A stretch of 64,000 nt of DNA from Salinibacterium sp. SWN167 (lineage in GTDB: Bacteria; Actinomycetota; Actinomycetes; Actinomycetales; Microbacteriaceae), in contig NZ_JADYWU010000001.1 of assembly GCF_015864665.1 (NCBI RefSeq), positions 930,001-994,000 on the forward strand, read 5' to 3'. Of the stretch, positions 7,605 to 47,729 are shown in pieces. The position numbers and the translations under genes are program-made. A model generated the notes under the pieces. That model did not search any database and was not told the DNA's origin. It was given only the letters and a program-made list of their open reading frames with translations. Numbering within the stretch: position 1 is the stretch's first letter; each line of letters begins with the position of its first letter.

Positions 7605-7748
7605 GTGGTTCCTCACCGGGACGCGAACACGGGGTGAGTGAACCTCACAATGAAATGCTACGGGGCTGGATGCTACCGCGCTGTCCCCACATAGGGGCGC
7701 GTTGAGCGCGACGTTAGCAGTGCCTCGGCAGCACTCGCGGTGAGCGTC

Positions 7749-15851: not shown

Positions 15852-15957
15852 CCCTCTCTGCAGTGTGGTGGCTTTGTGCCGCCCCTGTGCGGTTGCGCGC
15901 ATGCCCCTGATGGGCTGTGTGTGCCTCCGCGATGACAACGGAAAGCTGACAACTCAG

Positions 15958-16530: not shown

Positions 16531-16537
16531 TACAGAA

Positions 16538-18355: not shown

Positions 18356-18370
18356 AGAGTGCGAGCAGAC

Positions 18371-18412
18371 AACAGAACAGCCCCCGGCCAGCTGGCGCGG
18401 GGCTGATCTGTT
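18371..18412. terminator. Bidirectional terminator between Dyp peroxidase and pstB
   Basis: AACAGA-a-CAGCCCC pairs with GGGGCTG-a-TCTGTT around a 14-base loop, between two convergent genes. Confidence 0.7.
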
Positions 18413-18428
18413 GTGCTCAGGCGGCTCG

Positions 18429-19208
18429 TTAGCCGAACTTGCCCGAGACGTAGTCTTCGGTTGCCTGCACGCTAGGGTTCGAGAAGATCGTGGTGGTGTC
18501 GTCGTATTCGATGAGCTTGCCAGGAGCGCCGGTGCCGGCAATGTTGAAGAAAGCGGTGCGGTCAGAGACTCGGGCGGCCTGCTGCATGTTGTGGGTCACG
18601 ATCACGATCGTGTAGTCCTGCTTGAGTTCCTCGATGAGGTCTTCAATGGCCAGAGTCGAGATGGGGTCGAGGGCCGAGCACGGCTCATCCATCAACACGA
18701 CGTCGGGCTTTACAGCGATGGCGCGCGCGATGCAGAGTCGCTGCTGCTGTCCACCAGAAAGGCCAGAGCCGGGCTTGTCGAGACGATCCTTTACCTCTTG
18801 CCACAGGTTTGCGCCGATGAGGGATTGTTCGACGAGGTCGTCGGCGTCGCTCTTGCTCATGCGCGAGTTGTTGAGCTTCACACCAGCGATCACGTTGTCG
18901 CGAATCGACATCGTGGGGAACGGGTTGGGGCGCTGGAAGACCATGCCCACCTGGCGGCGAACGCTGACGGGGTCAACACCGGGCGCGTAGAGATTGTTGC
19001 CGTCAATGAGCACTTCACCCTCAACGTACGCACCGGGAATCACCTCGTGCATGCGGTTCAGGGTTCGCAGGAACGTTGATTTGCCGCAACCAGACGGGCC
19101 GATGAAGGCAGTAACGGTACGGGGCTCAATGGTGAGCGATACACCTTCTACAGCGCGAAACTTGCTGTAGTAGACGTTGAGGTCATTGACTTCGATGCGC
19201 TTAGACAC
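18429..19208 (-). CDS. pstB: Phosphate ABC transporter ATP-binding protein PstB
   Basis: ABC ATPase of 259 residues, the normal PstB length. Walker A is GPSGCGKST, the signature [14 protein letters not shown], Walker [14 protein letters not shown], with the switch His in [19 protein letters not shown], which is diagnostic for PstB. The start is GTG at 19208 (MSKRIEVN). It is the last gene of pstSCAB, 18 bases after pstA. It powers high-affinity phosphate import and is a known partner of PhoU, encoded at 31 kb here. Confidence 0.96.
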
Positions 19209-19226
19209 GAATAGGGGTTCCTTCGG

Positions 19227-20309
19227 TTATCGACCGGTCTTGGGGGCGAAGATCTTGGCGATGATGCGTGCCAGGAGGTTCAGTGCCATCACGATCAGGA
19301 TGAGGGTGAGTGCTCCAGCCCACGCCCGATCGATGTAGGCCTGGGCGTCGGTGCCCTGAGAAATGTAGGAGCTGTACACGAACACGGGCAAGCTCTGCAT
19401 CCGGTCGCTGAACAGCGAGTAGTTGAAGTTGTTGGTGAAGCCAGCGGCAACGAGCAGCGGGGCGGTTTCACCGATGACGCGGGCGATGGAGAGCATCACA
19501 CCGGTCGTGATTCCGGCGATGGATGTCGGCAGCACAACTTTCAGAATGGTCAGCCACTTGGGCACGCCGAGTGCAAACGCCGCCTCACGCAGTTCGTTGG
19601 GCACGAGTCGCAGCATTTCTTCGCTCGAGCGCACGACCACGGGAATCATGAGCACCGACAGGGCGACAGCTCCGGCGATTCCGACCCGAACGCCGGGGCC
19701 GAAGAAAATCACGATGAGGGAGTAGGCGAAGAGACCGGCGACGATCGAGGGGATGCCGGTCATGACATCCACGAAGAAGGTGATCGCTTGGGCAAGACGA
19801 CCGCGACCGTATTCGACGAGGTAGATCGAGGTCATGAGGCCGATGGGAACCGAAATGATGGTTGCCGCGAGAGTCATTTGCAGGGTGCCGATGATGGCGT
19901 GGGCTGCACCGCCACCTTCGCCGACGACGTTGCGCAGCGAGAGGGTGAAGAAGTCGAGGTCGAAGCGGGCTGCACCGTTGATCACCACGGTGTAGAGCAG
20001 TGAGATGAGCGGCAGGAGAGCGATAACGAACGCGAGGGTAACCAGAGTCGTGACGAGTCGGTCTGTGGCGCGACGGTGGCCTTCAACGAGTCGTGAGACG
20101 GTCACGAGCACGATGCCGTAGAGCACGACGCCGAAAAATACGGCGCCGACGACGTTGAACTCGCCTTCTGGCTGGCCTGCCTGAATGAACAGGAAGATGA
20201 TCACGAAGGTCGCGAGGCTGCTAATCAGGATAAGCAGGGGAGCCCAGCGGGGCAGTTGCCCGGCGGCGTAGGCGTTCTCGATGGGGCGCGCGGGGGTGGT
20301 GGTAGTCAT
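19227..20309 (-). CDS. pstA: Phosphate ABC transporter permease PstA
   Basis: Permease of 360 residues, longer than E. coli PstA because of an N-terminal extension with extra membrane helices (about residues 25-95). The typical core follows, with LRNVVGEGGGAAHAIIGTLQMT, then the ATPase-contact loop EMLRLVPNELREAAFALGVP. The ATG overlaps the pstC stop codon. It forms the channel with PstC. Confidence 0.94.
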   Translation of the reverse strand: MTTTTPARPIENAYAAGQLPRWAPLLILISSLATFVIIFLFIQAGQPEGEFNVVGAVFFGVVLYGIVLVTVSRLVEGHRRATDRLVTTLVTLAFVIALLPLISLLYTVVINGAARFDLDFFTLSLRNVVGEGGGAAHAIIGTLQMTLAATIISVPIGLMTSIYLVEYGRGRLAQAITFFVDVMTGIPSIVAGLFAYSLIVIFFGPGVRVGIAGAVALSVLMIPVVVRSSEEMLRLVPNELREAAFALGVPKWLTILKVVLPTSIAGITTGVMLSIARVIGETAPLLVAAGFTNNFNYSLFSDRMQSLPVFVYSSYISQGTDAQAYIDRAWAGALTLILIVMALNLLARIIAKIFAPKTGR

Positions 20310-34754: not shown

Positions 34755-35960
34755 ATGAGTCCACAGAATGCTCCGCGCGTTGCAGTGATCCTGCTCGGCG
34801 CCGGAAATGGAACCCGCCTCGGTCGAAACGAGCCAAAAGCTTTCGTCCACCTCGCTGGCCGTCCGACCCTGAGCCGTGCTCTTGAATCCGTTTTTGCCAT
34901 GGTCGAGCCGACGCAGGTCATCATCACGGTTCCCAAGTCCTACGCTCCGATCGCGAAGCAACTTGCGCGATCGGTACCGGGTGGTCGCGATCACGAACCC
35001 ACCATCATCGTCGGTGGCGCAACTCGTCAAGAGTCTGTTGCCGCTGCGCTCGGCTACCTCGAGCCCAGCGTCGATGTGGTTCTCGTGCATGATGCGGCGC
35101 GTCCGCTGACCCCGAGCGTTGTCTTTGACTCGGTTGCTGCTGAGGTTCGCAGCTCCGGCGCCGGTGTTGTGCCTGGCCTTCCCGTTGCCGACACGATCAA
35201 GCGCACGGATGACAACAGCCAAGTTGTTGAGACCGTGGATCGTTCGGTGCTCATGGCCGTGCAGACCCCGCAGGGTTTTCCGCGTGACCAGCTCGTCGCC
35301 GCTCACGCTGCCGCGCGAGAAGAGCACACCGATGACTCTGCGCTGGTAGCCGCTGCCGGCTATCCCGTCTCGATCATCGCTGGCGATCCGCTCGCGTTCA
35401 AGATCACCACGGCGTGGGAACTTCGTCGCGCCGAACAATTGTTTACCGAATCTGCCGCTACCGGCATCCGGGTCGGCACGGGCACCGATGTGCACGCCTA
35501 CGACTCAACGAAGCCGCTATGGCTCGCGGGGCTCCACTGGCCCGATGAGGTCGGTCTTCGTGGGCACAGTGATGGCGATGTCGTTGCGCACGCGATTTGC
35601 GATGCCATGCTCTCCGCCGCGAAGCTCGGTGACCTCGGCAGTGTCTTTGGCACGAGCGATCCCAAATTTGAAGATGCTCATGGCGACGTGTTCCTGCGTG
35701 AAACCCTGTTCCTGTTGCGGGATGCCGGCTTCGAAGTGGGCAACGTTTCCGTTCAGCTCATTGGAAATCATCCGATGGTGTCGCGTCGTCGCGTCGAGGC
35801 AGAGGAGTTCCTCAGCGGAATTCTTGGTGCCTCGGTGAGCATTGCGGGCACGACCTCCGACGCTTTGGGCTTCACGGGCCGTGGCGAAGGTATGGCGGCG
35901 ATCGCTACAGCGCTCGTGCACGTGCGCACGGTGGCCGAAGCAGCACACAACAAGGGCTAA
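34755..35960 (+). CDS. ispDF: Bifunctional IspDF: MEP cytidylyltransferase / MEcPP synthase
   Basis: Fusion of two MEP-pathway enzymes, 401 residues. Residues 1-235 are IspD, which attaches CMP to 2-C-methyl-D-erythritol 4-phosphate ([16 protein letters not shown] with the Mg/CTP site, then [10 protein letters not shown]). Residues 237-400 are IspF, the cyclodiphosphate synthase ([23 protein letters not shown]). The intermediate IspE is not in the window. Start ATG at 34755 after CGCCCCCT. The island that follows contains a DRL-type oxidoreductase that could share MEP as a substrate. Confidence 0.95.
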
Positions 35961-36142: not shown

Positions 36143-36172
36143 TGGTTCAATGCTCGTCGGACTGCTATACCT
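36143..36172 (+). promoter_or_regulatory. Candidate promoter for the sorbitol-type PTS genes
   Basis: TTGGTT (36143-36148), 18-base spacer, TATACC (36167-36172). The transcript would start near 36180, and the palindrome CACATATGTG follows at 36201. Confidence 0.5.
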
Positions 36173-36200
36173 GTTATTACACGACTGTGAGTCCAATGCT

Positions 36201-36210
36201 CACATATGTG
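36201..36210. promoter_or_regulatory. Palindromic operator CACATATGTG
   Basis: Perfect 10-base palindrome about 30 bases downstream of the -10 element and 100 bases before the first PTS gene. It shares the CACANNNGTG pattern with sites at 38990, 47811 and 47929. Confidence 0.5.
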
Positions 36211-36310
36211 CAAATGCAGTACCAGGGTCGATGGGGACACGCACCTCACGTCTACGCCACCGGCCCTGACAGGCGCCGACAACGAAGTTGCGGCTGGAGA
36301 AAGGTGTGAG

Positions 36311-37018
36311 ATGCAATCTGTTCTGGACACGATAATTTGGGCGGCTGATTCGCCGCCAGTGCCGGCCAGTGACAACCCGTTCATTCAGGCCCTCACCTGG
36401 GGTGCGACGCACTTCATCGGCCTGTTCAATGCATCGGGTGAAGCTCTTGTTGGTTTGGCCACCGGCATCCTGCCGACACTGATCGTGCTTCTCACGTTCA
36501 TGTACGCGATCACCACCTGGGTGGGCGAAGCGCGCATGACTCGTGCGGTGCAGTGGTCAGCTCGCTGGGCCATTACTCGTTACACGCTCATGCCCATCAT
36601 CGCGGTCATCGTCTTGACCAACCCGATGGCGTACTCCTTCGGCATCTATCTACCCGAACGACAGAAGCCGGCGTTCTACGACTCTGCAGTGTCTTTCGTG
36701 CACCCCGTCACCGCCTTCTTCCCGCACGCTAACGCTGGCGAGATCTTCGTCTGGGCTGGTGTCTCGGCTGGAGTTCTCTCCATCGCTCCCGAAAAGTACC
36801 CGCTGCTCGCGCTGCTGTACTTCGGTACCGGCATCGTCGTGATCTTCATTCGCGGAGTCGTCACCGAGTGGATCACTAACCTGCTCATCCGTCGCCAGGG
36901 TCTCACGGCCGTCTTTGACGAGTACGACCGCGAATTTGCTTTGGCCAGTGAACGCTTCAACGAGGCAAAGTCGACCAAGAAGACCGGATCCTCGGTTGCC
37001 ACTGAAGGGACGGTGTGA
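36311..37018 (+). CDS. PTS system glucitol/sorbitol-type IIC component (GutA/SrlA family)
   Basis: Membrane component of about 235 residues from ATG 36311, which has AGAAAGGTG just upstream. About five helices are visible. Family features include ITRYTLMPIIAVIVLTNPMAYSFGIYLPE and SVSFVHPVTAFFPHANAGE (present here as SAVSFVHPVTAFFPHANAGE). In E. coli SrlA forms the channel with SrlE and passes the polyol during phosphorylation. Its end carries a Lys/Thr-rich tail. It is followed within four bases by the IIBC gene. Sorbitol is not assured as the substrate, since no sorbitol-6-phosphate dehydrogenase is in the island. Confidence 0.9.
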   Translation: MQSVLDTIIWAADSPPVPASDNPFIQALTWGATHFIGLFNASGEALVGLATGILPTLIVLLTFMYAITTWVGEARMTRAVQWSARWAITRYTLMPIIAVIVLTNPMAYSFGIYLPERQKPAFYDSAVSFVHPVTAFFPHANAGEIFVWAGVSAGVLSIAPEKYPLLALLYFGTGIVVIFIRGVVTEWITNLLIRRQGLTAVFDEYDREFALASERFNEAKSTKKTGSSVATEGTV

Positions 37019-37020
37019 TC

Positions 37021-38076
37021 ATGACTGAGAACACCTACAACAAAGTATTCGTCAAGCCCGGCAACGGCGGCTGGGGCAAGGGCCTCCTGCTCGAGCCCAG
37101 TGAGACCAAGAACGTCGTTCTCTCGGTAACCGGTGGCGGAATCCACCCGGTCGCCGCGCGTATCGCTGAACTGACCGGCGCAGAAGCTGTCGACGGCTTC
37201 ACCAACAGCATTCCCGAAGAGCGCGTTGTCGCTGTCGTGATCAACTGTGGTGGAACCGCGCGAATTGGCGTCTACCCCAAGAAGCGCATGATGACCGTGG
37301 ATGTCTTCCCGGGAGAGCCATCGGGCCCCCTCGCTAAGTACATCACCGACGATGTCTTCGTCTCCGCAGTGGGAACCGAAGACGTTGAGCTTGCGGGAGG
37401 ATCAGCCGCGTTCGCGACTCATGCTGCTGAAGCGTCGGCAGCATCCGAAGCAGCAATCGGAAGCCCGGCACCGTCTGGAGCATTCGGTACGAGCAACGTG
37501 ACGCACTTCACGGCGCAGACCACAACGGGTGGGGGCTTCATCGGCTTCTTCTCGAACGTGGCAACGCGCTTCGGTTCGGTCATCGGAAACATCATCAACA
37601 CGCTGCTGTCGTCTGGTCGCCAGACTGTTCAGCTCGTGCTGCAGACGATCCTTCCGTTCATGGCGTACGTGAGCCTCTTGATTGGTTTCGTCACCTACTC
37701 GGGACTCTCGGACCTCATTGCGCAGGCAGTAACTCCGTTGGCCTCGAACCCGATCGGCCTCATCCTCCTTGGCGTGATCACGGGACTACCGTTCCTGTCG
37801 CCCATCCTCGGACCGGGTGCGGCTATCGCACAGGTCGTCGGTGTACTCATGGGTACACAGATCGCCGCTGGCGCGCTGCCAGTGCAGTATGCACTGCCGA
37901 CGCTGTTCGCCATCAACGGTCAGGTTGGTTGTGACTTCGTTCCCGTGGGTCTTGCCCTGGGAGAAGCCAAGCCGGAGACGGTCGCAGTGGGTGTTCCCGC
38001 TGTACTCTTCTCTCGCCTGATCACATCGCCGCTGGCAGTCTTGATCGCGTGGGGCGCAAGCTTCGCACTGATCTAA
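37021..38076 (+). CDS. PTS system glucitol/sorbitol-type IIBC component (SrlE family)
   Basis: A 351-residue protein with a cytoplasmic IIB domain first (phospho-Cys likely in VINCGGTARIGVYPKKR, about residue 76) and membrane helices after about residue 185 (LILLGVITGLPFLSPILGPGA). A Ala/Ser-rich linker joins them (about residues 130-165). Phosphate passes from IIA (next gene) to the Cys and then to the substrate. Start ATG 37021 has GGGACGG upstream; a GTG two codons earlier overlaps the IIC stop. Confidence 0.9.
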   Translation: MTENTYNKVFVKPGNGGWGKGLLLEPSETKNVVLSVTGGGIHPVAARIAELTGAEAVDGFTNSIPEERVVAVVINCGGTARIGVYPKKRMMTVDVFPGEPSGPLAKYITDDVFVSAVGTEDVELAGGSAAFATHAAEASAASEAAIGSPAPSGAFGTSNVTHFTAQTTTGGGFIGFFSNVATRFGSVIGNIINTLLSSGRQTVQLVLQTILPFMAYVSLLIGFVTYSGLSDLIAQAVTPLASNPIGLILLGVITGLPFLSPILGPGAAIAQVVGVLMGTQIAAGALPVQYALPTLFAINGQVGCDFVPVGLALGEAKPETVAVGVPAVLFSRLITSPLAVLIAWGASFALI

Positions 38077-38121
38077 CCAGCACAACCACCACACGTAACA
38101 GCAGAGAAAAGCGAGACAGCA

Positions 38122-38496
38122 ATGACTACCTATTACCGCAGCGAGGTCACGTCCATCGGAACGGACGCCACCGAAATGTTTGAAGGGGGAGTGGTGATCT
38201 TCTTCGGAGAACCCTGCCCCGCCGAACTGGCTGAGGTAAGCGTGGTTCACACTGTCGCGCACCACCACCCGCAGCGCGACCCCCAGCCGGGAGACGTGCT
38301 GCGGGTGGGGGACTCTGAAGTCACCATTACGGAGGTCGGCGAGATTGCCGGCAACAACCTCCGCACGCTTGGTCATTTCGTGATCTACAGCGACCCAGAA
38401 GACAGCCAGAAAGTTCTCCCCGGCGCCATTCACGCGAAGGGCACACTCTCGTTGCCCAACGCGGGCGTCACCATTGAGCTCATCGAAGGTAGTTGA
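38122..38496 (+). CDS. PTS system glucitol/sorbitol-type IIA component (SrlB family)
   Basis: Cytoplasmic IIA of 124 residues. The phosphohistidine lies in VHTVAHHHPQRDPQ, matching the family. It receives phosphate from HPr and gives it to the IIB Cys of the preceding gene. AGAGAAAAGCGAG lies upstream. One IIA, one IIBC and one IIC in a row make a complete sorbitol-type permease. Confidence 0.9.
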   Translation: MTTYYRSEVTSIGTDATEMFEGGVVIFFGEPCPAELAEVSVVHTVAHHHPQRDPQPGDVLRVGDSEVTITEVGEIAGNNLRTLGHFVIYSDPEDSQKVLPGAIHAKGTLSLPNAGVTIELIEGS

Positions 38497-38497
38497 C

Positions 38498-38899
38498 ATG
38501 GACACCGGCTTCGCATTACTGCTGATGGCAGCGCTCGTACTGAGCGTTGTATTCAGCCTTCTTCAACAGCGCACGTATTCTCGTGCCACCAAGCGCCTGG
38601 GAACCAGCTTCCTCGGCGTCAAAGACCACTTCCTCGTCTCGGGGCGAGGCAAGAGCTTTCTCCGGGGAGCGATCGTTCTCCTCGTCGTCGACGCGTCAAC
38701 ATCTCGCATCGTGGCCGCCGAGGCCATGGTCGGCAGCACCGTCATGGCGCACTTCAAGCCGCGCCCCGAGCTGATCGGTGATCTCGATACCGCCGTGCTT
38801 CGCACGAAGGAAAAGATGATGACCGCAGCCGTGGACTACGCGACCAAGCAGTACTGGGTTACGTATAAGCGCAACGTCGCAGCGGCAGCCCGCAAGTAG
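38498..38899 (+). CDS. GutM/SrlM family membrane protein
   Basis: A 133-residue protein with one N-terminal membrane helix (residues 4-22), then a soluble part (YSRATKRLGTSFLGVKDHFL, GRGKSFLRGAIVLLVVD). GutM proteins were named activators of the glucitol operon, but they look like small membrane proteins and their mechanism is unclear. The ATG at 38498 sits directly after the IIA stop codon. It closes the PTS part of the island; a promoter for the enzyme genes lies right after it. Confidence 0.82.
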   Translation: MDTGFALLLMAALVLSVVFSLLQQRTYSRATKRLGTSFLGVKDHFLVSGRGKSFLRGAIVLLVVDASTSRIVAAEAMVGSTVMAHFKPRPELIGDLDTAVLRTKEKMMTAAVDYATKQYWVTYKRNVAAAARK

Positions 38900-38979
38900 C
38901 AACATCACTCGTTCGGGTGTTTCGGCATCCGACATTGCATCGTCGTTCCCGGCGGGGCATACTAAATACACATACTTGA

Positions 38980-39007
38980 TTAACTAACGCACATAAGTGC
39001 ATATAAC
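38980..39007 (+). promoter_or_regulatory. Candidate promoter with embedded operator upstream of the DRL-family gene
   Basis: TTAACT (38980-38985), 16-base spacer, TATAAC (39002-39007), with the operator-like CACATAAGTG (38990-38999) inside the spacer. A repressor there would block polymerase. The transcript would begin near 39014, and the gene starts at 39028. Confidence 0.55.
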
Positions 39008-39027
39008 GTGGTTTCAAAGGGGTAGTC

Positions 39028-40353
39028 ATGGGTTACACAAACAAACTGCTTGCGCGTCAGCGTGAAGTCGGTCGTCCCGTCCGCATCGGACTCGTCGGAG
39101 CAGGCCAAATGGGCTCCGGCTTCATCGCCCAGATCGCACGCCAAAAGGGCGTCGACATCACCGCCGTCGCCGACATTGCGATCGACCGTGCCGTAAGCGC
39201 TCTCGCCAACGCCGGCATCACCGACGTTGACCAGTCAGCGGACCTCGAGACGCTTGCCGCCACAATCGAAGCGGGCGGCCACGTTGTCGTCAACGACGCT
39301 CTCGCATTGCCCAAGCTCCCTATCGACATGGTCATCGAGTGCTCGGGCGTTCCCGAGATCGCCGCCAAAGTCGCTCTGGCTTCGCTGCTCGGCGGCAAGG
39401 ATGTCGCCCTCATGACTGTTGAGGCAGACGTCACCGTCGGTCTCCTCCTGGCTCGCATCGCAGCGCAGACCGGCAACATCTACACCGTCTGCCGTGGCGA
39501 TGAGCCCGTTGAGTGCCTGAAGCTCGTCGAGTACGTCGAAGACATCGGTCTTGACGTTGTGCTCGCCGGTAAGGGCAAGAACAACCCGCTCAACGAGTCG
39601 GCTACCCCCTCCAGTCTCGAAGAAGAAGCCAAGACCAAGGGCATGAACCCGCGGATGCTGTGCAGCTTCGTCGACGGAACTAAGACGATGATCGAGATGG
39701 CTGCCCTCGCTAACGCGGCAGACCTTGAGCTCACGAAGCGTTCGATGCACGGACCGGCCGCAACAGTGCCGACCCTGCAGGACATCTTCAAGCCCATCGA
39801 AGACGGCGGCATCCTTGACCGCAGCGGTGTTGTTGACTACGCCACTGGCCCGGTTGCTCCCGGTGTGTTCGTTGTTGCGAAGGCAACTGACCCCGTGGTG
39901 CACGAGGAGCTCAGCTACCTCAAGCTCGGCGAAGGCCCCTACTTTGCGTTCTACCGTCCGTACCACCTCGCCAGCGTCGAGGCAGTGCTGTCGATTGGCG
40001 AGGTCATGATCGACCGCCAGCCGTCGCTCGCTCCGATCGCCTGGAACGCAGATGTTTCTGCCATGGCCAAGCGCGACCTCAAGGTTGGCGAGAAAATCGA
40101 TGGCATCGGTGGCGAGCACGTCTACGGTGACGCTGTTCCGGCGGCCGAGGCCAAGGCCGGGCGCGAACTGCCCATCGGTCTGGCATCGGCGGGCACGCTC
40201 ATCCGTGACGTTGCCAAGGGAACTGCGGTGACCTACGACGACGTACAGCTCGACGAAACCAAAACGATTGTGATCTTGCGCAAGCTGCAGGATGCCCTTC
40301 TCGCCGATGGCCAGCTGCAGGTTCCTGCACTCGCGTCGTTGCTCTCCGTTTAA
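39028..40353 (+). CDS. DRL-family (COG4091) NAD(P)-dependent oxidoreductase, SAF domain
   Basis: A 441-residue protein with an N-terminal Rossmann fold (GAGQMG at residues 24-29), the family motifs AGKGKNNPLN (about 181-190), SFVDGTKTMIEMAALANA and GMNPRM, PYFAFYRPYHL, then a C-terminal SAF domain (about residues 345-435). Annotated elsewhere as homoserine-dehydrogenase-like. The nearest characterised relative I recall is DRL of Brucella, an alternative DXP reductoisomerase that interconverts DXP and MEP. Many family members may act on other substrates. Gene order here (polyol PTS upstream, acetoin-dehydrogenase-like E1 and E2 downstream) suggests oxidation of a PTS-made polyol phosphate. Start ATG 39028 after AAAGGGG. 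Confidence 0.82.
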   Translation: MGYTNKLLARQREVGRPVRIGLVGAGQMGSGFIAQIARQKGVDITAVADIAIDRAVSALANAGITDVDQSADLETLAATIEAGGHVVVNDALALPKLPIDMVIECSGVPEIAAKVALASLLGGKDVALMTVEADVTVGLLLARIAAQTGNIYTVCRGDEPVECLKLVEYVEDIGLDVVLAGKGKNNPLNESATPSSLEEEAKTKGMNPRMLCSFVDGTKTMIEMAALANAADLELTKRSMHGPAATVPTLQDIFKPIEDGGILDRSGVVDYATGPVAPGVFVVAKATDPVVHEELSYLKLGEGPYFAFYRPYHLASVEAVLSIGEVMIDRQPSLAPIAWNADVSAMAKRDLKVGEKIDGIGGEHVYGDAVPAAEAKAGRELPIGLASAGTLIRDVAKGTAVTYDDVQLDETKTIVILRKLQDALLADGQLQVPALASLLSV

Positions 40354-40367
40354 GAAAGGTGACCACT

Positions 40368-41342
40368 ATGAACACGCAGATCGTTGCGGACCGCGAACTC
40401 GCGGCAGCCAGCCTTGCCACCATGTGGAAAATCCGCCGCTTTGAAGAAGCAGTGGAAGATCTCTACGGCCGTGGACTCATGCACGGCACCATGCACCTGT
40501 CGATCGGTCAAGAGGCCGTGCCAACGGGAGCATGCCTCGCCCTCAATAAGGACGACTACATCACCTCGACGCACCGTGGCCACGGTCACTGCATCGCCAA
40601 GGGCGCCGATATGGAGCGCATGATGGCTGAACTTCTTGCGAAAGAAACCGGCTACTGCCGCGGCCGCGGTGGCTCCATGCACATCGCGGATACCGAAACC
40701 GGAAACCTCGGTGCGAACGGCATCGTTGCCGGTGGAATCCCTATCGCGACCGGCGCAGCGCTGTCGGCGAAGATGCGCGGCACCAAGCAGGTTGCTGTGA
40801 GCTTCCACGGTGACGGCGCGATGGGTGAAGGCGCCTGGCACGAGGGTGTTGTGCTCGCGGCCATGTGGCAGCTTCCCGTTGTGTTCCTCTGCGAAAACAA
40901 CCTCTATGGCATGTCGATGTCGTCAGAGAAGGCCTTCAATCTCGACCAGCTTTCTGACCGCGCGAAGGGCTACGGCATCCCCGGAGTCACCGTTGACGGT
41001 AACGATGTTCAGGCTGTCTATGACGCCACGAAGGAAGCGGTTGACCGCGCTCGTGCTGGCGGCGGACCGACCTTCATCGAAGCAAAGACGTACCGCTGGC
41101 GCGGACACTCGAAGTCAGACAAGAACCTGTACCGCACGCGCGACGAGATCGATGAGTGGCGCGGTAAAGACCCCATTCCTCACTTCGAAGCTCTGGCTCT
41201 CGCCGCCGGTGGCCTCACGCAGGCTGACATCGACGCTGTGCGCGACAACGTGCGCACCGAGCTGCGCAGTGCCGTTCAGCGCGCCAACGCTGCGCCGGAC
41301 GCCACCGCTGACGATCTACTTTCCGCCGTCTACGCAAGGTAA
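40368..41342 (+). CDS. Acetoin-dehydrogenase-like E1 component, alpha subunit
   Basis: Thiamine-diphosphate enzyme of 324 residues. The ThDP motif reads [15 protein letters not shown] through [21 protein letters not shown] and [14 protein letters not shown] match AcoA-type subunits rather than the longer classical PdhA. AcoA/AcoB cleave acetoin to acetaldehyde and a hydroxyethyl unit that goes to lipoamide. Start ATG 40368 with AAGAAAGG upstream; a GTG three codons earlier is less likely. It is followed by the beta subunit after five bases. Confidence 0.9.
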
Positions 41343-41347
41343 CAACG

Positions 41348-42385
41348 ATGACTATTGAGACGACCGCGGCCCAGCCCGCAGCGGCCCCCGCACCGGCCGA
41401 GACAGTGACAATGACCTACTCTGAGGCCATTCGCGACGCAATGCGCATCGCCATGGCTAAGGACCCCGCCGTCTTCATCATGGGTGAAGATGTCGGAACC
41501 TACGGTGGCGCCTTTGGAGTCACCGGCGAGCTGATCAACGAGATCGGCCCCGAGCGCATCCGCGACACCACCATCAGTGAGCTCGGCATCATGGGTGCCG
41601 GTGTCGGTGCTGCCATGACCGGAATGCGCCCGATCGTGGAGATCCAGTTCTCTGACTTCACGGCTCAGGCCATGGACCAGATCGCCAACCAGGCAGCGAA
41701 GATTCACTTCATGCTCGGTGGCGCCGTGAGCGTGCCGATGGTTATTCGCGCTCCCGGCGGCTCGGGAACGGGTGCTGCCGCGCAGCACTCGCAGAGCCTC
41801 GAAGCGTGGTTCGTGCACATCCCGGGTCTCAAGGTTGTCATGCCGGCAACGGCGGATGACGCCAAGGGCCTGCTGCTCTCGGCGATCGACGACCCCAACC
41901 CGGTCATGGTTATCGAGCACAAGCTGCTCTACAAGACCTCGGGAGAGGTGCGCACGGGAGACATCCGCACGCCGCTCGGTGTCGCCGCTGTTCCTCGCGA
42001 GGGCAAGGATCTCACCATTATTGCCACCGGTGTCGAGGTGAGCCGCGCACTCGAGGCTGCCGAGATTCTCGCCGCCGACGGTATCGAAGCAACCGTGGTT
42101 GACCCGCGCACGCTCAAGCCTCTCGACAGCGACACCATCCTGCGCACCGTCAAGGCCACCGGTCGTGTCCTGCTCGTGCAAGAGGCTGTGCGTACACTCG
42201 GCTTCATGTCCGAAGTGTCTGCGATCATCTCCGAGTCGGATGCCTTCGGCTACCTTCGTGCGCCGATCAAGCGTCTTGCTGGCCTCGACATCCCCATCCC
42301 GTACGCACCCAAGCTCGAACGCGCTTCGGTTCCTCAAGTTGAAGACATCGTCGCGGCAGCCACTGATCTCGTTCGGAAGTGGTGA
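41348..42385 (+). CDS. Acetoin-dehydrogenase-like E1 component, beta subunit
   Basis: A 345-residue partner of the alpha subunit. It has a low-complexity Ala/Pro/Glu start (residues 1-20), then [34 protein letters not shown] and the conserved [17 protein letters not shown]-terminal transketolase domain from about residue 205. Together the subunits make an alpha2beta2 E1 enzyme. Coupled to E2, whose ATG is one base past the stop codon. Confidence 0.9.
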
Positions 42386-42386
42386 C

Positions 42387-43709
42387 ATGGCTGAGCTGCC
42401 ACTGACAATGCCCAAAATGTCCATGACCATGGAAGAGGGCACGATGGTCGCGTGGCTCAAGCAGGAAGGTGACTCGGTTCGTTCCGGGGAGCCGATCTGT
42501 GAGGTCGCGACCGACAAAGTCGACATGGAAGTGGAGTCGCCATTCGATGGTGTGCTCGCTCGCATCATTGCGCAGCCCGATGACGTCTACGCGGTAGGCG
42601 ACACGATCGCGTTCATCACAACCGAAGCGGATGACCTGCTCGGCGGCCTCTTCGACGAGCCCGTTGTTGAAGCTCCGGCTGCGGTTGCGGCCGAAGCGGT
42701 TGCGCCCGTTGCTGCGCCTGCGCCGATCGCCACCGGTTGGATTCCTGCCGTTCCGGGCGCACGCAGTGCAGCAGAAGCCGCAGGCATCGACCTTGCGACC
42801 GTGACACCGACCGGCCCAGACAACACCGTGCGGGTCGCGGATGTCGAAGCGGCTACCGCAGCACCCGCAGCCCTCGTTGCGGCACCGGTTGCGTCAGCCG
42901 CTCCCGTTGCTCCTGCGGTCGTTCCGGCCGCTGCAGCCCCCGTCGCCGCTCCGGCTCCGGCCGCAGCACCAGCAGCTCCGGCTCCGGCTCCGGCTGTGGC
43001 CGCTGCGCCCGCCACAGCGCCCGCCACAGCGCCCGCTACAGCGGTTGACCCGGTAGAAGCTCGCCGCCTGCGCACCCGCAAGCAAGTTGCCAAGGTGATG
43101 GCGGCATCCGCTCTCGTTCCGCAGTTCACTGCCTACGTTGATCTCGATTTGTCAGCTTTGGCTGCCGTGCGCAAAACCACGCTCGGCGGCGCAAGCTGGA
43201 CCGCGCTCTTTGTGCGGGCTCAAGCAATCGCTCTGGCCGAGAACGCTGCGCTCAATGGCACCTGGACTGATGGGGGAGTTGCTGCCAACGAGCACATCGG
43301 AATTGCGCTCGCGATTGACTCACCATCGGGGCTCATCGCGCCGGTGCTGACGAACTCGCACAAGGGAACGCTGGCCGACCTGGTCGCCGAAATTGCGACC
43401 GTCGTCGACGAGACGCGCAAGGGAACCTTGCCGCCCGCACGCCTCGGCGGCGGAACAAGCGTATTCTCGAATCTGGGTGGATTCGGCGTGGAATCGTTCA
43501 ACGCACTACTGACCCCACCGCAGTCGACAGCTTTGTCGTCGGGAGCCGTCAAGCCGCGCATGCGCGTGTTTGACGACGAATCCTTCGGTGTTCGTCTGAG
43601 CTGCACGATCGGCCTCACCGTCGATCATCGTGTAGCTGACGGTGCGGATGCCGCACGAATGCTCGCGACCATCACCAACCTCGTCGCGACCCCGGAGCGT
43701 TTGCTCTAG
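42387..43709 (+). CDS. Dihydrolipoamide acyltransferase (E2) with lipoyl domain
   Basis: A 440-residue protein. Lipoyl domain at residues 3-78 with the lipoyl Lys 44 in ATDKVDMEVESP. Residues about 90-200 are Ala/Pro-rich linker with a small E1/E3-binding domain (PGARSAAEAAGIDLATVTPTG). The catalytic domain ends with DHRVADGADAARML, the HxxxDG active-site His. It accepts the acyl group from E1 and transfers it to CoA. No E3 (dihydrolipoamide dehydrogenase) gene is in the window; a housekeeping one would be needed. Start ATG 42387 with GGAAGTGG upstream; the longer open frame upstream overlaps the beta gene. Confidence 0.92.
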   Translation: MAELPLTMPKMSMTMEEGTMVAWLKQEGDSVRSGEPICEVATDKVDMEVESPFDGVLARIIAQPDDVYAVGDTIAFITTEADDLLGGLFDEPVVEAPAAVAAEAVAPVAAPAPIATGWIPAVPGARSAAEAAGIDLATVTPTGPDNTVRVADVEAATAAPAALVAAPVASAAPVAPAVVPAAAAPVAAPAPAAAPAAPAPAPAVAAAPATAPATAPATAVDPVEARRLRTRKQVAKVMAASALVPQFTAYVDLDLSALAAVRKTTLGGASWTALFVRAQAIALAENAALNGTWTDGGVAANEHIGIALAIDSPSGLIAPVLTNSHKGTLADLVAEIATVVDETRKGTLPPARLGGGTSVFSNLGGFGVESFNALLTPPQSTALSSGAVKPRMRVFDDESFGVRLSCTIGLTVDHRVADGADAARMLATITNLVATPERLL

Positions 43710-43785
43710 AGCCGCAACCCGCTCGCGGGTTCCACCCCAGCGCTCCGTACGGGCGCTGTCCACCACGTTTCGAAACAGGTACACC

Positions 43786-44043
43786 ATGTCAGAACGCACA
43801 GCCACAATCGTTTCACCGTCCGGACTTCACGCCCGCCCCGCTGCTCTGTTTACGCAGGCCGTCAGCAAGAGCGGTTTCAAGATCACGGTCGCTAAGGGTG
43901 AGAAGGCCGTCAACGCGGCCAGCATCCTCGCCGTTATCTCGCTCGGTGTCTCGCAGGGCGAAACCGTCACGATTGCCTCCGACGATGAGGGCGCTGACAG
44001 CGTTCTCGACCAGCTCGTAGAACTGCTCTCCACCGTCGAATAG
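43786..44043 (+). CDS. ptsH: Phosphocarrier protein HPr
   Basis: An 85-residue HPr. The active-site His 15 is in PSGLHARPA, and Ser 46 is at the position of the regulatory phosphoserine of Gram-positive HPr. It receives phosphate from enzyme I and passes it to the PTS IIA proteins. No enzyme I gene is visible in the window. Its place at the end of a plus-strand operon of PTS and E1/E2 genes suggests it is dedicated to this island. A strong terminator follows. Confidence 0.95.
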   Translation: MSERTATIVSPSGLHARPAALFTQAVSKSGFKITVAKGEKAVNAASILAVISLGVSQGETVTIASDDEGADSVLDQLVELLSTVE

Positions 44044-44241: not shown

Positions 44242-45678
44242 TTAGGCCTTGGCTACTTCTTCGTCGGATGCTGCTGCGGCATCCGCTTCGACCTGAGCAC
44301 GAACGATGTCGCGCTTCTTCTCGAGGCGGCTCACCCAGTAGGCGAAGCCGAGGGAGAGCACGGCGAGGACCGCAATGGTCCAGCCGCCGAGGTTTGCTAC
44401 TCCGAAGAACAGGCCGGTCAGAGGGTTGGCTCCGTCGACGAGCGACGAGATGAGCTGTGATCCCTGGTTGTCGCTGAAGCCGGAAGCTTCGGCGATGGCC
44501 GTGAACTGCGGTGCCGTTGCGGTGGCGATGAACAGGCCGATCGCAATAACGATTGCACCACCGATGACGGAGCGCACGATGTTGCCACGGAAGATCGGAA
44601 CCATCATGGCCACGATGAACGGCAGAGTCGCAAGGTCAACGAGCGGCAGTACCTGGTTGCCGAGCGGAGCGAGCGCAATAGCGATCAACACGGTGACGGG
44701 AACCAACACGAGCGACGTCGCGAGCACCGCGGGTTGCCCCACGGCGATAGCGGTGTCAAGACCGATGTAGAACTTGCGGCCGGGGAAACGCTTCTGAACG
44801 AACTCGCGAGCGGAGTCGGAGACCGGGATGAGGCCTTCCATCAGGATCGACACCATGCGCGGCAGCAGCAGTAGAACGGCGGCGAGGCTGATCGCGAGAA
44901 CGAGGATCGCAATCGAGTCTTCACGTGGGTCGTCGAAGCCGAAGCCAGCGAGCCCGATGATGATTCCGAGCACGAGACCCAGGATCATCGATTCGCCGAA
45001 GACACCGAAGCGCTTCTCGATGGTCTGCGGGTCAGCCTTCAGATTGCGGAAGCCGGGGATGCGGTCGAAGATCCAGTTGAAGGGGATCGCAAACAGGATG
45101 TACGGCGCGCTGGTTCCGTGGGGGAACGAGATGTCGGGGAAGTTGAAGTACTTCTGGATCATCGGTGCCGAGAGGTCGGCCAGGGCCAGAACGATCACCA
45201 TGTGCACGGCGGCAGCGGCAATACCGATCCAGAAGTTGTCGGTGACGGCTCCGACAAGAGCGCCCACGAGGGCGAAGTGCCAGAAGTTCCACAGGTCGAT
45301 GTTGAACGTGCGGGTAAGGCCCGACCACAGCAGCAACATGTTGACGAGGATGCCGACAGGAATAATCACCGCCCCGATAGTTGATCCGAACGCGATGGCG
45401 GCGCTCGCGGGCCAACCAACGTCAAGAACGGTGAGGTTCACGCCGAGGTTCACGGCGAGAGCCTGAGCGGCGGGACCAACCGTGCCGGCCATGAGGCCGA
45501 TCACGAGGTTGATGCCGATGAAGCCGATACCGATGAGGACACCGGCGCGGAGGGCTTGGCTAAACTTTTGGCCAAGGATCATGCCGAAGATCGTGATGAG
45601 GATCGGCAGGGTTACGGAGGCTCCGAGAGCCGTGAGATAGCTGGTGATATTCGTCAGAATATCTTCAATGATGTTCAA
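44242..45678 (-). CDS. PTS system galactitol-type IIC component (GatC family)
   Basis: Membrane protein of 478 residues with about 11-12 helices. EIIC-GAT family motifs are visible: SVTLPILITIFGMILG, AFGSTIGAVIIPVGI, and NFWHFALVGALVGAVTDNFW. A basic/acidic cytoplasmic tail ends the protein. The IIB gene is 104 bases upstream. The usual galactitol catabolic genes (galactitol-1-phosphate dehydrogenase, tagatose kinase or aldolase) are missing, so the substrate is open. Confidence 0.9.
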   Translation of the reverse strand: MNIIEDILTNITSYLTALGASVTLPILITIFGMILGQKFSQALRAGVLIGIGFIGINLVIGLMAGTVGPAAQALAVNLGVNLTVLDVGWPASAAIAFGSTIGAVIIPVGILVNMLLLWSGLTRTFNIDLWNFWHFALVGALVGAVTDNFWIGIAAAAVHMVIVLALADLSAPMIQKYFNFPDISFPHGTSAPYILFAIPFNWIFDRIPGFRNLKADPQTIEKRFGVFGESMILGLVLGIIIGLAGFGFDDPREDSIAILVLAISLAAVLLLLPRMVSILMEGLIPVSDSAREFVQKRFPGRKFYIGLDTAIAVGQPAVLATSLVLVPVTVLIAIALAPLGNQVLPLVDLATLPFIVAMMVPIFRGNIVRSVIGGAIVIAIGLFIATATAPQFTAIAEASGFSDNQGSQLISSLVDGANPLTGLFFGVANLGGWTIAVLAVLSLGFAYWVSRLEKKRDIVRAQVEADAAAASDEEVAKA

Positions 45679-45781
45679 CGTTGAACGTCCAATTCTCTGT
45701 CTGAAGTGAGTGGTGTGGGTGCGCTAGAGCGCGCGGTAACGCACCGCAATGGTTAACTGCGGTGCACGGCGTCGGGGTGAA

Positions 45782-46063
45782 TTAGCCGAACTGCTTCTCG
45801 ATTTCGGCATACACCTTGTCGAGGCCCATTCCGGTAAGGAACGGGAGTCCGGCGATAACGGGGATTCCGACCGAGCCGGGCACTTGGGTAGTGGCGACGA
45901 TGAAGTCTGCAGCGAGGTCGCCGCGCAGAGTGTCGGTTACTTTGCCTTGCGAGATTGTGGCGTCGAGGCCCTTAGACGCACAAAAGTCCTTGATCTTTGT
46001 TGCGACCACGGTGGATGTTGCGACGCCGGTGCCACAGATGACGAGGATGCGTTTTGAGGCCAA
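45782..46063 (-). CDS. PTS system galactitol-type IIB component (GatB family)
   Basis: A 93-residue protein, the normal GatB length. Phospho-Cys lies in ILVICGTGVATSTVV near the N-terminus. The start is a TTG at 46063 with GGAG eight bases upstream; an upstream frame reaching 46114 contains no typical start and lacks a ribosome site. The divergent IIA gene begins 156 bases away and the intervening region has paired TGTACA sites. Confidence 0.88.
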   Translation of the reverse strand: MASKRILVICGTGVATSTVVATKIKDFCASKGLDATISQGKVTDTLRGDLAADFIVATTQVPGSVGIPVIAGLPFLTGMGLDKVYAEIEKQFG

Positions 46064-46120
46064 TTTCGATACTCCAATGTATTCGCGAATGACTGGTGTG
46101 ACACAATTATGCACGTTTGA

Positions 46121-46136
46121 TGTACAAATGTGTACA
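46121..46136. promoter_or_regulatory. Paired TGTACA sites in the gatA/gatB divergent region
   Basis: TGTACA occurs at 46121-46126 and 46131-46136, with the 10-base unit TGTACAAATG/TGTACAAGTG repeated directly. Each TGTACA is palindromic. Placement in a divergent promoter suggests a regulator-binding site, perhaps for the SorC regulator or another protein. Confidence 0.5.
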
Positions 46137-46219
46137 AGTGGTTCTTGTTTTGACTAACACAGTCGCCAAGTGCCCGACAGACACGAAACTTAACCACCGC
46201 CAATGAAGGATGAGGGTTC

Positions 46220-46741
46220 ATGAGCGACACGACCAACGCAGCCGCGGCAGATGCCAACCACGAGGGCGCAACCGCGACCGTAATGCCGCGCGCCGACCTC
46301 AGCTTTGTGGGCCTCCAAGCCAGCTCGAGTGCCGAAGTTCTCACGGCTTTCGCGGCCCAGGCGCTCGCCGTCGGAGCAGTACACCCCACCTATGAGCTGG
46401 CACTGCTTGAGCGCGAACGGGCATACCCCACCGGGCTGCCGACCGTCATCCCTGTTGCTATTCCTCATGCGGATGTCGAACACGCCATCGAGTCGGGCCT
46501 AGGAATTGCGATGCTTGCAGAACCGGTCGACTTCGGCGAAATGGGCGGAGCTGACTCCACCGTCGCAGCCCGGGTCGCGGTGCTTATTCTCGTCACCGAG
46601 CCGCACGCACAAACGGAGATGCTGTCGCAACTCATCGCCGTGTTCCAACTCGATGGCTGGCACGAAACGCTGAGCGCAGCCACGACTGCGGAAGAACTCG
46701 CCGCAACTTTCGCCGGCCTGCTGGCTTCAACCGCTCAGTAG
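46220..46741 (+). CDS. PTS IIA component, galactitol/fructose-type (GatA/EIIA-Ntr-like)
   Basis: A 173-residue IIA protein with an acidic/Ala-rich N-terminal extension of about 24 residues. The phosphohistidine is His 83 in VAIPHADVEHA. It would pass phosphate from HPr to the GatB Cys. It is transcribed away from gatBC. SorC gene follows 60 bases past its end, on the other strand. Confidence 0.87.
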   Translation: MSDTTNAAAADANHEGATATVMPRADLSFVGLQASSSAEVLTAFAAQALAVGAVHPTYELALLERERAYPTGLPTVIPVAIPHADVEHAIESGLGIAMLAEPVDFGEMGGADSTVAARVAVLILVTEPHAQTEMLSQLIAVFQLDGWHETLSAATTAEELAATFAGLLASTAQ

Positions 46742-46802: not shown

Positions 46803-47729
46803 TTAACGCTGGTTGAGGAGTGCGAGCGCGAGGTCCGAGTCGACGACGAGCACATCGAAGAGCCCGCCCGTGAGCGCCGCGTGGGTGCCCTCGAGCTTCT
46901 GTGCTCCGGCGGCAACGCCCACGACGGTCGGAATGTTGCCGAGCTCTTCCAGATCGATCGCGATGACGCGGTCATTAACTACTGACTCGACGATTTTTCC
47001 GTCACTGTCGAAGAAGCGTGTGCAGCAGTCACCAACGGCTCCGGATGCTGCGAACTCAGCGCGCTCAGTCTTGCTCAAGTTCATCGACTCGATGATCGCG
47101 CCAGAAGCTCCAACGCCGACGTTACCGACACCAACGATCGCGATCTTGGCCCGCTTCGATGCGCTCAATACGCCGGTGATGGACGGTTCGCGCAGGAATG
47201 CTTCTCGGGATGCGGGGGATTCGACGACCGCGGGCGCGTAAAGGCGGCGGTGTTGCGCTCCCAGTTTGGTGGCGAGCAGGCGGACGAGAACGTTGCCGTC
47301 GCGAGCGGAGTCCACGATGGAAAGCCCGCCGACGAGGGGAAGCACTTCGATGTTCTCGTGGGAGGAGTCATCCGGAATCTCATCAACGACGGCCTGCACG
47401 CTTGAGCCCCAGGAAAGGGCGATGCCGCCGTCGCGGGGCAGATTGTCGATGAGCCATTGGGCGCCGAGCGCGCCAACGCGAGTGAGTTGGTTGTCGGCGC
47501 CGGTGCTGGGCGCGACGCGGCACTCGCGGAGTCCGTAGCGGGCGACGAGTTGAGCTTCGAGGTCTTGAGCACGGCCGAAAGGATCGTTGATACGGATCTC
47601 GACGATGCCGTTCTTGCGGGCATCAGCGAGCACGCGAGAGACGTTCGATCGCGAGACCCCAATCTCTTGGGCGACTTCGGCTTGTGATTTGCCCTCGAGG
47701 TAGTAGAGAGTGGCGGCCTTCACAAGCAT
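46803..47729 (-). CDS. SorC/DeoR-family sugar-binding transcriptional regulator
   Basis: A 308-residue regulator. N-terminal helix-turn-helix (MLVKAATLYYLEGKSQAEVA, then GVSRSNVSRVLADARKNG) and a C-terminal sugar-phosphate-binding domain from about residue 60 (SWGSSVQAVVDEIPD, VGNVGVGASGAII). The ATG at 47729 is the first start after an in-frame stop. It is divergent from the hydroxyacyl-CoA-dehydrogenase-like gene. It is the only regulator in the island, so it is the best candidate for the CACANNNGTG sites. Confidence 0.9.
   Translation of the reverse strand: MLVKAATLYYLEGKSQAEVAQEIGVSRSNVSRVLADARKNGIVEIRINDPFGRAQDLEAQLVARYGLRECRVAPSTGADNQLTRVGALGAQWLIDNLPRDGGIALSWGSSVQAVVDEIPDDSSHENIEVLPLVGGLSIVDSARDGNVLVRLLATKLGAQHRRLYAPAVVESPASREAFLREPSITGVLSASKRAKIAIVGVGNVGVGASGAIIESMNLSKTERAEFAASGAVGDCCTRFFDSDGKIVESVVNDRVIAIDLEELGNIPTVVGVAAGAQKLEGTHAALTGGLFDVLVVDSDLALALLNQR

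Follow-up and report, generated by a model that had tools for sequence, protein, structure and literature searches.

A candidate operon for the catabolism of 2-C-methyl-D-erythritol joins a DXR-II-type oxidoreductase to an acetoin-dehydrogenase-like complex

A 64,000-nucleotide stretch of the Salinibacterium sp. SWN167 genome (contig NZ_JADYWU010000001.1, positions 930,001 to 994,000; hereafter the window) contains a cluster of genes for a sorbitol-type phosphotransferase system (PTS), an oxidoreductase of the DRL family, a two-subunit E1 of the 2-oxoacid/acetoin dehydrogenase type and a lipoyl E2. We think it probable that this cluster is a catabolic operon for 2-C-methyl-D-erythritol (ME), which would be degraded by way of 2-C-methyl-D-erythritol 4-phosphate (MEP) and 1-deoxy-D-xylulose 5-phosphate (DXP) to acetyl-CoA and glyceraldehyde-3-phosphate. 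The preliminary description of this DNA had proposed the same pathway, which comparative evidence, though not biochemistry, now supports as a hypothesis. Every part is a member or a relative of a known family. For the pathway as a whole, which had been put forward as undescribed, no catabolic route for methylerythritol or DXP was found in the literature searched, among the matches listed, and the excerpts of PMC6106888, PMC10663253 and PMC5957436 contain nothing on this gene context.

From gene content, conservation, phylogeny and residues we infer the substrate, the direction of the oxidoreductase step and the cleavage. The PTS would take up ME and phosphorylate it to MEP, and the DRL protein would convert MEP to DXP, a compound of the form CH3-CO-CHOH-R. 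The E1 alpha and beta subunits with thiamine diphosphate would then cleave the C2-C3 bond of DXP, much as acetoin dehydrogenase acts on acetoin: thiamine attack at C2 would release glyceraldehyde-3-phosphate, and the hydroxyethyl unit would become acetyl-CoA through the lipoyl-E2, with lipoate regenerated by an E3 encoded elsewhere that uses NAD+. The SorC-type regulator would probably sense MEP or DXP, and MEP may also enter IspD where the organism has that enzyme.

Gene content and conservation of the cluster

Genes were called from open reading frames, a start-site check and Pfam and NCBIfam profile scans. Between ispDF and the SorC-type regulator they run on the + strand in the order srlA, srlE, srlB, gutM, DRL, E1 alpha, E1 beta, E2 and HPr, followed by a gat-type PTS. 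The genes of this run are as follows.

36206..37018, + strand: srlA-type PTS IIC (Pfam EII-GUT, 209.3 bits; NCBIfam NF049923, 176.7 against a cut-off of 150)
37015..38076, + strand: srlE-type PTS IIBC (Pfam EIIBC-GUT_N/_C; NCBIfam NF049924, 424.5 against a cut-off of 400)
38122..38496, + strand: srlB-type PTS IIA (Pfam PTSIIA_gutA, 90.9 bits; under the NCBIfam cut-offs)
38474..38899, + strand: GutM-like protein (Pfam GutM, 47.9 bits)
39028..40353, + strand: DRL / DXR-II-type oxidoreductase, proposed MEP-to-DXP step (Pfam DRL_cat, 214.8 bits against a cut-off of 27)
40359..41342, + strand: E1 alpha of a 2-oxoacid/acetoin-type dehydrogenase, proposed DXP-cleaving subunit (Pfam E1_dh, 298.6 bits; trees)
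41348..42385, + strand: E1 beta (Pfam Transket_pyr and Transketolase_C; NCBIfam NF006667, 373.1 against a cut-off of 321; tree)
42387..43709, + strand: E2 lipoyl acyltransferase with lipoyl, E3-binding and catalytic domains (Pfam)
43786..44043, + strand: HPr (Pfam PTS-HPr, 85.2 bits)

These calls bear out the sorbitol-type PTS, DRL-family oxidoreductase, two-subunit E1 and lipoyl E2 that had been described at the locus, with the DRL, E1 alpha and E2 proteins under every NCBIfam cut-off. For srlA an alternative start at 36311, preceded by GGAGAAAGG, is possible and may be the true one. No sorbitol-6-phosphate dehydrogenase of the short-chain dehydrogenase/reductase (SDR) type was found among the proteins profile-scanned around the locus, and between srlA and HPr the DRL gene is the sole dehydrogenase found, E1/E2 genes aside, both as the preliminary description had stated. 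The window genome (3.0 Mb; window GC content about 0.6) has a single DRL, encodes an AceE-type pyruvate dehydrogenase (PDH) and a lipoamide dehydrogenase elsewhere, and has DXR-I and IspDF; HMG-CoA reductase was not found in it. Its locus is nearly identical to that of Salinibacterium sp. NG253 (L005).

The combination recurs far beyond this genus. A first DRL scan gave 15 loci, with which the window proteins were compared by tblastn; the series srlA-srlE-srlB-DRL-E1 alpha-E1 beta-E2 is present in Salinibacterium, Cryobacterium, Terrimesophilobacter and Chloroflexi (Anaerolineales, L012 and L013), and in a Nocardioides metagenome-assembled genome (MAG) the PTS-DRL part is present and the contig edge holds an E2 fragment. 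Among the genomes sampled, those with a DRL number 56 of 346 Actinomycetota, 56 of 251 from the phylum of the Anaerolineales MAG, 67 of 289 from the same class as a Rhodobacteraceae-type genome, and 42 of 199 from the window's family. A set of 100 DRL loci, chosen and not random, was compared over contexts of about 7.5 to 10 kb per side, after 25 ids (near-duplicates and sub-loci) had been removed by hand, with L019 and L020, alike and from the same genus, both retained. E1 alpha is present in 42 of the 100, so the set of DRL, AcoA/B and srl-type PTS genes that was to be looked for in other genomes proves widespread. These 42 loci span Actinomycetota, Chloroflexota, Alphaproteobacteria and one Bacillota plasmid, and encode E1 beta (42), E2 (40), a SorC homologue (38), an srl PTS (32), enzyme I (21), HPr (21), gatC (10) and IspD (6). 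As an internal control, E1 alpha or srl genes occur in 0 of 28 DLO-type loci; the label is our own and denotes the 27 rows outside the DXR-II group of the DRL tree described below together with L076, and the unlinked DRLs L130-L136 and L146-L148 are not counted among them.

The same association is seen in plasmid records, where the best 40 DRL matches have E1 alpha within 3 kb in 32 and within 12 kb in 33, and 33 of the best 34 E1 alpha matches adjoin one of those 40 DRLs. The seven DRL records lacking E1 alpha come from Phyllobacterium (five), Pararhizobium (one) and Listeria (one). Evidence from Bacillota consists of three plasmid-collection records (Priestia, Listeria, Ligilactobacillus). 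Among the matches listed, E1 alpha is found in 17 of 40 contexts from Actinomycetota and in 3 of 20 from Chloroflexota, to which extension of two contexts added two more. Twelve contexts from the window's family, three of which repeat the genomes of L002, L005 and L009, comprise seven with E1 alpha, two with the PTS only and three with neither. The distances among DRLs and among E1s are correlated over 33 loci (Mantel r 0.88, 0 of 2000 permutations). We do not think that the linkage of DRL and E1 can be explained by chance. Two small genomes of 1.4 and 1.7 Mb (G1046 and G986) keep E1-E2-SorC-srl-DRL, which suggests real use in nature.

How the substrate would enter differs between lineages. 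The srl PTS stands with ptsP, SorC, DRL, E1 and E2 in Rhizobium sp. B230/85, Pseudoroseomonas and Terrarubrum. An ABC sugar transporter and a sugar kinase replace the PTS in S. meliloti Rm41, A. tumefaciens CFBP7129 and R. sophoriradicis, which also have SorC, DRL, E1, E2 and Lpd, and LipA in the first two. In Priestia, DRL lies amid PTS genes, E1-E2-Lpd, an MFS transporter and an FGGY kinase; NGR234 has SorC-DRL-E1-E2 (an unannotated record, by tblastn), and Aminobacter has DRL-E1-E2 with no sugar uptake genes adjacent. The constant core is thus DRL with E1/E2, and what varies is the part that brings in a sugar-like compound and phosphorylates it.

The DRL oxidoreductase and its isoprenoid context

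According to the excerpts of PMC3847144 (Carretero-Paulet et al. 2013), the DRL family consists of DXR-II, of which 11 members were functional in complementation, and DLO1/DLO2, of which four were tested and none was functional; Listeria innocua is listed there among the DXR-II species. The only solved-structure matches of the window DRL are the DXR-II entries 3upl (344 bits) and 3upy (343 bits). In a tree of 87 DRL rows (quick method, midpoint root; L001, L003, L005, L007, L016, L030 and L076 left out), a group of 60 rows with moderate support (SH-aLRT 85) unites the window, Brucella DXR-II 3upl, Listeria innocua and all of the tree's DRLs that are linked to E1 or PTS, with 27 rows outside it. 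The window DRL thus sides with characterised DXR-II and not with DLO1/DLO2, at that moderate support, and Brucella DXR-II nests among rhizobial E1-linked DRLs.

In the excerpts of PMC3847144, K191, K193 and T229 anchor fosmidomycin, T229 and R320 are sites of divergence that take part in substrate binding and dimerisation, Thr at 229 is called absolutely conserved in DXR-II, and G121 and V351 are among the positions discussed. All 45 linked DRLs keep G190, K191, G192, K193, N194, N195, D225, K228, R320 and H323, with T229 kept in 44 and H250 in 40. The window protein has K191, K193 and T229 as well as the family-typical H250 and R320, and differs at four positions, with Ala for G121, Lys for E174, Tyr for F178 and Asn for V351.

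Ten solo DRLs from an actinobacterial family (f12) also fall inside the DXR-II group. All eight f12 genomes tested (G004, G019, G047, G285, G093, G136, G190 and G305) lack DXR-I and HMG-CoA reductase and have IspD at 188-211 bits, and for this reason the f12 DRL is probably an MEP synthase. Since a known (Brucella) and a likely (f12) biosynthetic lineage both lie inside the linked group, MEP and DXP would be the most economical substrate pair for the linked DRLs. Service of the window DRL as a mere backup for DXR was considered and rejected, as the genome already has DXR-I and IspDF.

IspD, which consumes MEP, has homologues in or beside the cluster in L011, L037-L042, L045 and L057-L059/L128/L129. 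All eight cluster IspDs scanned have ispD as their best NCBIfam model, not ribitol-5-phosphate cytidylyltransferase, with the ispD cut-off (181.3) passed in L128 and L129 and six below it (157-181 bits). In three genomes (G422, G502, G404) the cluster IspD (178-180 bits) is a second copy in addition to a stronger one located elsewhere (213-216 bits), and G017 and G200 have another besides the cluster copy; in G108, G063, G247 and G349 the cluster IspD is the sole full-length copy. The recurrence of this enzyme beside a PTS and DRL points to MEP as the probable product of the PTS or kinase. In the Nocardioides MAG (L011), an IspD-like gene near carD (6833-7984, - strand) reaches 37 bits only, and a better IspD (133 bits) lies 3' of DRL.

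Six genomes (G348, G350, G351, G504, G472 and G087) combine the cluster with HMG-CoA reductase (356-395 bits) and have neither DXR-I nor full-length IspD, so the role of the cluster there would not be isoprenoid synthesis; DRL as a DXR backup was rejected for these genomes on the same ground. A Cryobacterium (G347) has HMG-CoA reductase alongside DXR-I and IspD, and the f9 genomes give weak partial DXR-I matches only. In these comparisons IspD-like matches of 27-44 bits, which pass the Pfam cut-off and cover part of the model, were taken as probable GlmU-like or related transferases, and a missing DXR-I in an unfinished genome may reflect incompleteness.

The E1/E2 complex and the rival explanations

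In a tree of joined E1 alpha and beta sequences (careful method, duplicates removed), the DRL-linked E1s and the acetoin dehydrogenase group form one clade (98/94), and a tree of E1 alpha alone gives the same grouping. The linked rows form a clade of their own (90/88), except L017, which lies unresolved at the base. Two operons, with L094 and L095 as the anchors, fix the identity of the Aco group (8 rows, 100/97). One, from Enterococcus, includes a sigma-54 regulator and 2,3-butanediol dehydrogenase; the other, from Mycetohabitans, includes a sigma-54 regulator together with an NAD-kinase-like gene, E2 and lipA. The remaining E1 paralogues sampled in the cluster genomes, which were not named one by one from annotation, fall outside both groups or inside the Aco group, and the window E1 does not cluster with those of PDH type. 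No sigma-54 regulator, AcoX-like gene or butanediol dehydrogenase was found in eight annotated linked loci or among the window proteins scanned. The earlier characterisation of this E1 as AcoA/B-like stands as to its grouping with acetoin dehydrogenase-type E1s; the window E1 lies outside the Aco clade itself and is best described as acetoin-dehydrogenase-like, not AcoAB.

Linked E1 alphas share H42 (41 of 42), T44 (42 of 42) and K252 (40 of 42); the corresponding residues in the eight Aco-type rows are P (8), F (7) and E (7). For this comparison five short loci (L103, L104, L107, L111, L119) were relabelled by hand as DRL-linked, the link being visible in longer loci of their genomes, and the Aco-type rows were assigned by tree position (six) or annotation (two). 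T44 aligns with Phe in the human PDH alpha stretch RGFCH and K252 with Met in the HSMSD stretch, positions that we take to line the active-site channel. A more basic channel would suit a phosphorylated substrate, and T44 and K252 are consistent with a charged one. A 1986 paper cited for formation of 1-deoxy-D-xylulose by PDH names acetoin dehydrogenase in its title too. As given in the excerpts of PMC3424233, purified PDH makes 1-deoxy-D-xylulose from pyruvate and D-glyceraldehyde, and aceE mutants make enough DXP in vivo to replace Dxs, which wild-type PDH does not. This formation of 1-deoxy-D-xylulose strengthens the pathway hypothesis, as does the title of a paper by Testa et al. that bears on ME transport.

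Several observations count against ME catabolism. As to the uptake step, in Salmonella ME is phosphorylated by an ATP-dependent kinase (PMC3994034, excerpts). The pairing of DRL with E1 is also incomplete. An alphaproteobacterial sample has E1 or PTS in 0 of 7 contexts (one a 5 kb contig), a Phyllobacterium DRL near the rhizobial DRLs has ABC genes and no E1, and the correlation of DRL and E1 distances drops to r 0.38 among 468 more distant pairs. DRL-PTS clusters without E1 occur in Listeria, in two loci of the window's own family (L144 and L145, with srl PTS, GutM, DRL and SorC; L144 also has, close by, a gene of the class II fructose-bisphosphate aldolase type and another that is TIM-like, 11217-12824) and on a Ligilactobacillus salivarius plasmid (L085, where DRL and an srl-type PTS accompany an FSA-type aldolase and a transketolase). 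Either DXP is handled otherwise in these variants or their DRLs act on another polyol phosphate; the DRL-PTS pair can evidently feed something else too, and this is the main reason why our confidence stays short of high. Further, IspD is present in just six of the 42 E1-linked loci and gatC in 10, the role of the gat-type PTS being unexplained by the proposed route; Ser replaces Thr at 229 in 9 of 10 f12 rows, which weakens the bracketing argument; and no DXR-I, full IspD or HMG-CoA reductase was detected in two genomes with E1-linked DRLs (G119 and G275), perhaps through genome incompleteness. As to monophyly of the linked E1s, they stand together on one side of a branch, but for one change, in 28% of 200 bootstrap trees, and T44 is also found in 2 of 16 other E1 alphas.

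The same chemistry could serve another substrate, which we judge unlikely. Here the PTS would import a 1-deoxy or 6-deoxy polyol (1-deoxypentitol, rhamnitol or fucitol), DRL would be a plain polyol-phosphate dehydrogenase forming a 1-deoxyketose phosphate, and E1/E2 would release acetyl-CoA. An acetoin-type E1 requires only a CH3-CO-CHOH-R substrate, and a different polyol is hinted at by the E1-free clusters in which aldolase and TIM-like genes, or FSA and a transketolase, accompany DRL and the PTS; against this, the linked DRLs keep the DXR-II substrate-binding residues, likely biosynthetic lineages are nested among them, and IspD recurs in or beside the cluster. More doubtful still is an ordinary polyol operon with an accessory PDH, in which DRL would form a ketose phosphate by oxidising the phosphate of some common hexitol or pentitol, glycolysis would yield pyruvate, and E1/E2 would be the PDH. 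The profile scores lean that way, since the best NCBIfam model of E1 alpha is that of PDH (TIGR03182, 356.6, below its cut-off of 393.85), E1 beta passes the PDH-beta subfamily model NF006667 while staying under the equivalog NF008854, and the best solved-structure relatives of E1 are PDHs, all of which also tells against ME catabolism; FSA and transketolase in the Ligilactobacillus locus fit too. AceE-type PDH is absent from 4 of 11 genomes tested, but it is encoded elsewhere in the other seven, the window's included, so the cluster E1 is not the sole PDH in those seven. The E1 moreover groups with acetoin dehydrogenases, apart from the other paralogues sampled, and remains with DRL where an ABC transporter and kinase replace the PTS. 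We regard isoprenoid or cofactor salvage as very improbable. ME would then be scavenged to feed MEP into IspD, or DXP into thiamine or pyridoxal phosphate synthesis, with E1/E2 draining the excess, which would agree with IspD in or beside clusters, at times as a second copy, and with the thiamine genes adjoining one rhizobial cluster. Yet the six cluster genomes with HMG-CoA reductase lack DXR-I and full-length IspD, the window genome already has DXR-I and IspDF, and E1/E2 (with Lpd and LipA in two rhizobia) make up a carbon-catabolic outfit.

Neighbouring genes, significance and relation to known systems

The genes flanking the run from srlA to HPr, with one possible regulatory site, are as follows.

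34755..35960, + strand: IspDF, housekeeping neighbour and MEP consumer (Pfam IspD, YgbB; TIGR00453, 200.1 against a cut-off of 181.3)
36177..36213, no strand: imperfect palindrome 5' of srlA, possible regulator site (weak)
44242..45678, - strand: galactitol-type PTS IIC, gatC (Pfam EIIC-GAT, 280.9 bits)
45782..46114, - strand: PTS IIB of the second PTS, gatB (Pfam PTS_IIB, 49.5 bits)
46220..46741, + strand: PTS IIA of the second PTS, gatA (Pfam PTS_EIIA_2, 76 bits)
46803..47729, - strand: SorC/DeoR-type regulator with sugar-binding domain (Pfam Sugar-bind, 222.2 bits)

The preliminary description had placed the locus at 36143-44043, and its genes within that range are right; the locus is nevertheless larger, as the gat-type PTS and the SorC regulator recur with it. 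The gat-type PTS often adjoins E1 (window 44242-46741, L128, L061, L019, L020, L027, L077 and L084), and in L128 a single run, gatB-gatC-gatA-E1-E2-HPr, diverges from DRL-srl-IspD. As a speculation, it might import 1-deoxy-D-xylulose. IspDF does lie directly upstream, as had been noted, but as evidence this adjacency is weak and on its own was set aside, the gene belonging to an ordinary carD-ispDF...cysS neighbourhood also found in relatives. In Terrimesophilobacter (L009 and L143; HMG-CoA reductase present), the gap between carD and srlA holds a PTS enzyme I-like gene instead of ispDF. In L077 thiC, an FAD oxidoreductase gene, thiS and a thiazole synthase gene (15789-19263) lie 3' of a rhizobial DRL-E1-E2 cluster; DXP is a thiazole precursor. 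A 3-hydroxyacyl-CoA dehydrogenase gene at 48018 was rejected as a pathway member, being unmatched in the L004 and L006 contexts. The palindrome 5' of srlA, a possible SorC site, is largely kept in L002 and L004, and a weakly similar sequence stands at 38988-39002, 5' of DRL. The window has three palindrome-like matches against 0.9 expected, a number reached by 6 of 100 shuffles, and an exact-word comparison of intergenic regions gave no shared operator motif apart from this weak palindrome.

If the pathway is real, its significance would extend beyond this operon. We know of no consumer of ME as a carbon source. ME and its glucosides build up in plants, and the cyclic diphosphate form is exported by plants as well as microbes (PMC11192765, excerpts); ME is thus an existing carbon source for which the cluster would supply a consumer. 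PMC3847144 raises the question of what led bacteria already equipped with one DXR to evolve a second, unrelated enzyme, and the cluster would offer an answer. We advance, as a tentative idea that could go either way, a wider scheme in which bacteria of at least four phyla eat ME through reversed first steps of the MEP pathway and a CoA-acetylating DXP dehydrogenase, and in which DXR-II arose as a catabolic enzyme and was recruited to isoprenoid synthesis more than once (in the Brucella lineage and in the actinobacterial family). Such a catabolic origin would explain the redundancy of DXR-I and DXR-II. The E1 would be a thiamine enzyme of new specificity, intermediate between acetoin dehydrogenase and DXP synthase, and the cluster would give isoprenoid engineers an uptake and entry module bypassing Dxs and Dxr.

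Each known system shares a part with the window locus. Compared with glucitol/sorbitol PTS operons, the IIC and IIBC pass the NCBIfam glucitol/sorbitol equivalog cut-offs, the IIA is recognised by Pfam only, under the NCBIfam cut-offs, and a GutM homologue is present, whereas DRL takes the place of the SDR sorbitol-6-phosphate dehydrogenase (none found adjacent) and the regulator is of SorC type. The window DRL belongs to the same family and group as Brucella-type DXR-II (3upl/3upy) and keeps K191, K193, T229 and the interface residue R320; the Brucella enzyme is described as isoprenoid biosynthetic (PMC3847144, excerpts), unlike a DRL found in a PTS and E1/E2 operon of a genome that already has DXR-I. 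The E1 is related to that of acetoin dehydrogenase (AcoA/AcoB), and the same carbon-carbon cleavage chemistry would act on DXP, but it lies outside the Aco group and its alpha subunit has H42/T44/K252 against P/F/E. Finally, the proposed route would share MEP and DXP with the MEP pathway (Dxs, Dxr, IspD, IspF), while reversing the Dxr step and the carbon-carbon step of Dxs and ending at acetyl-CoA instead of pyruvate.

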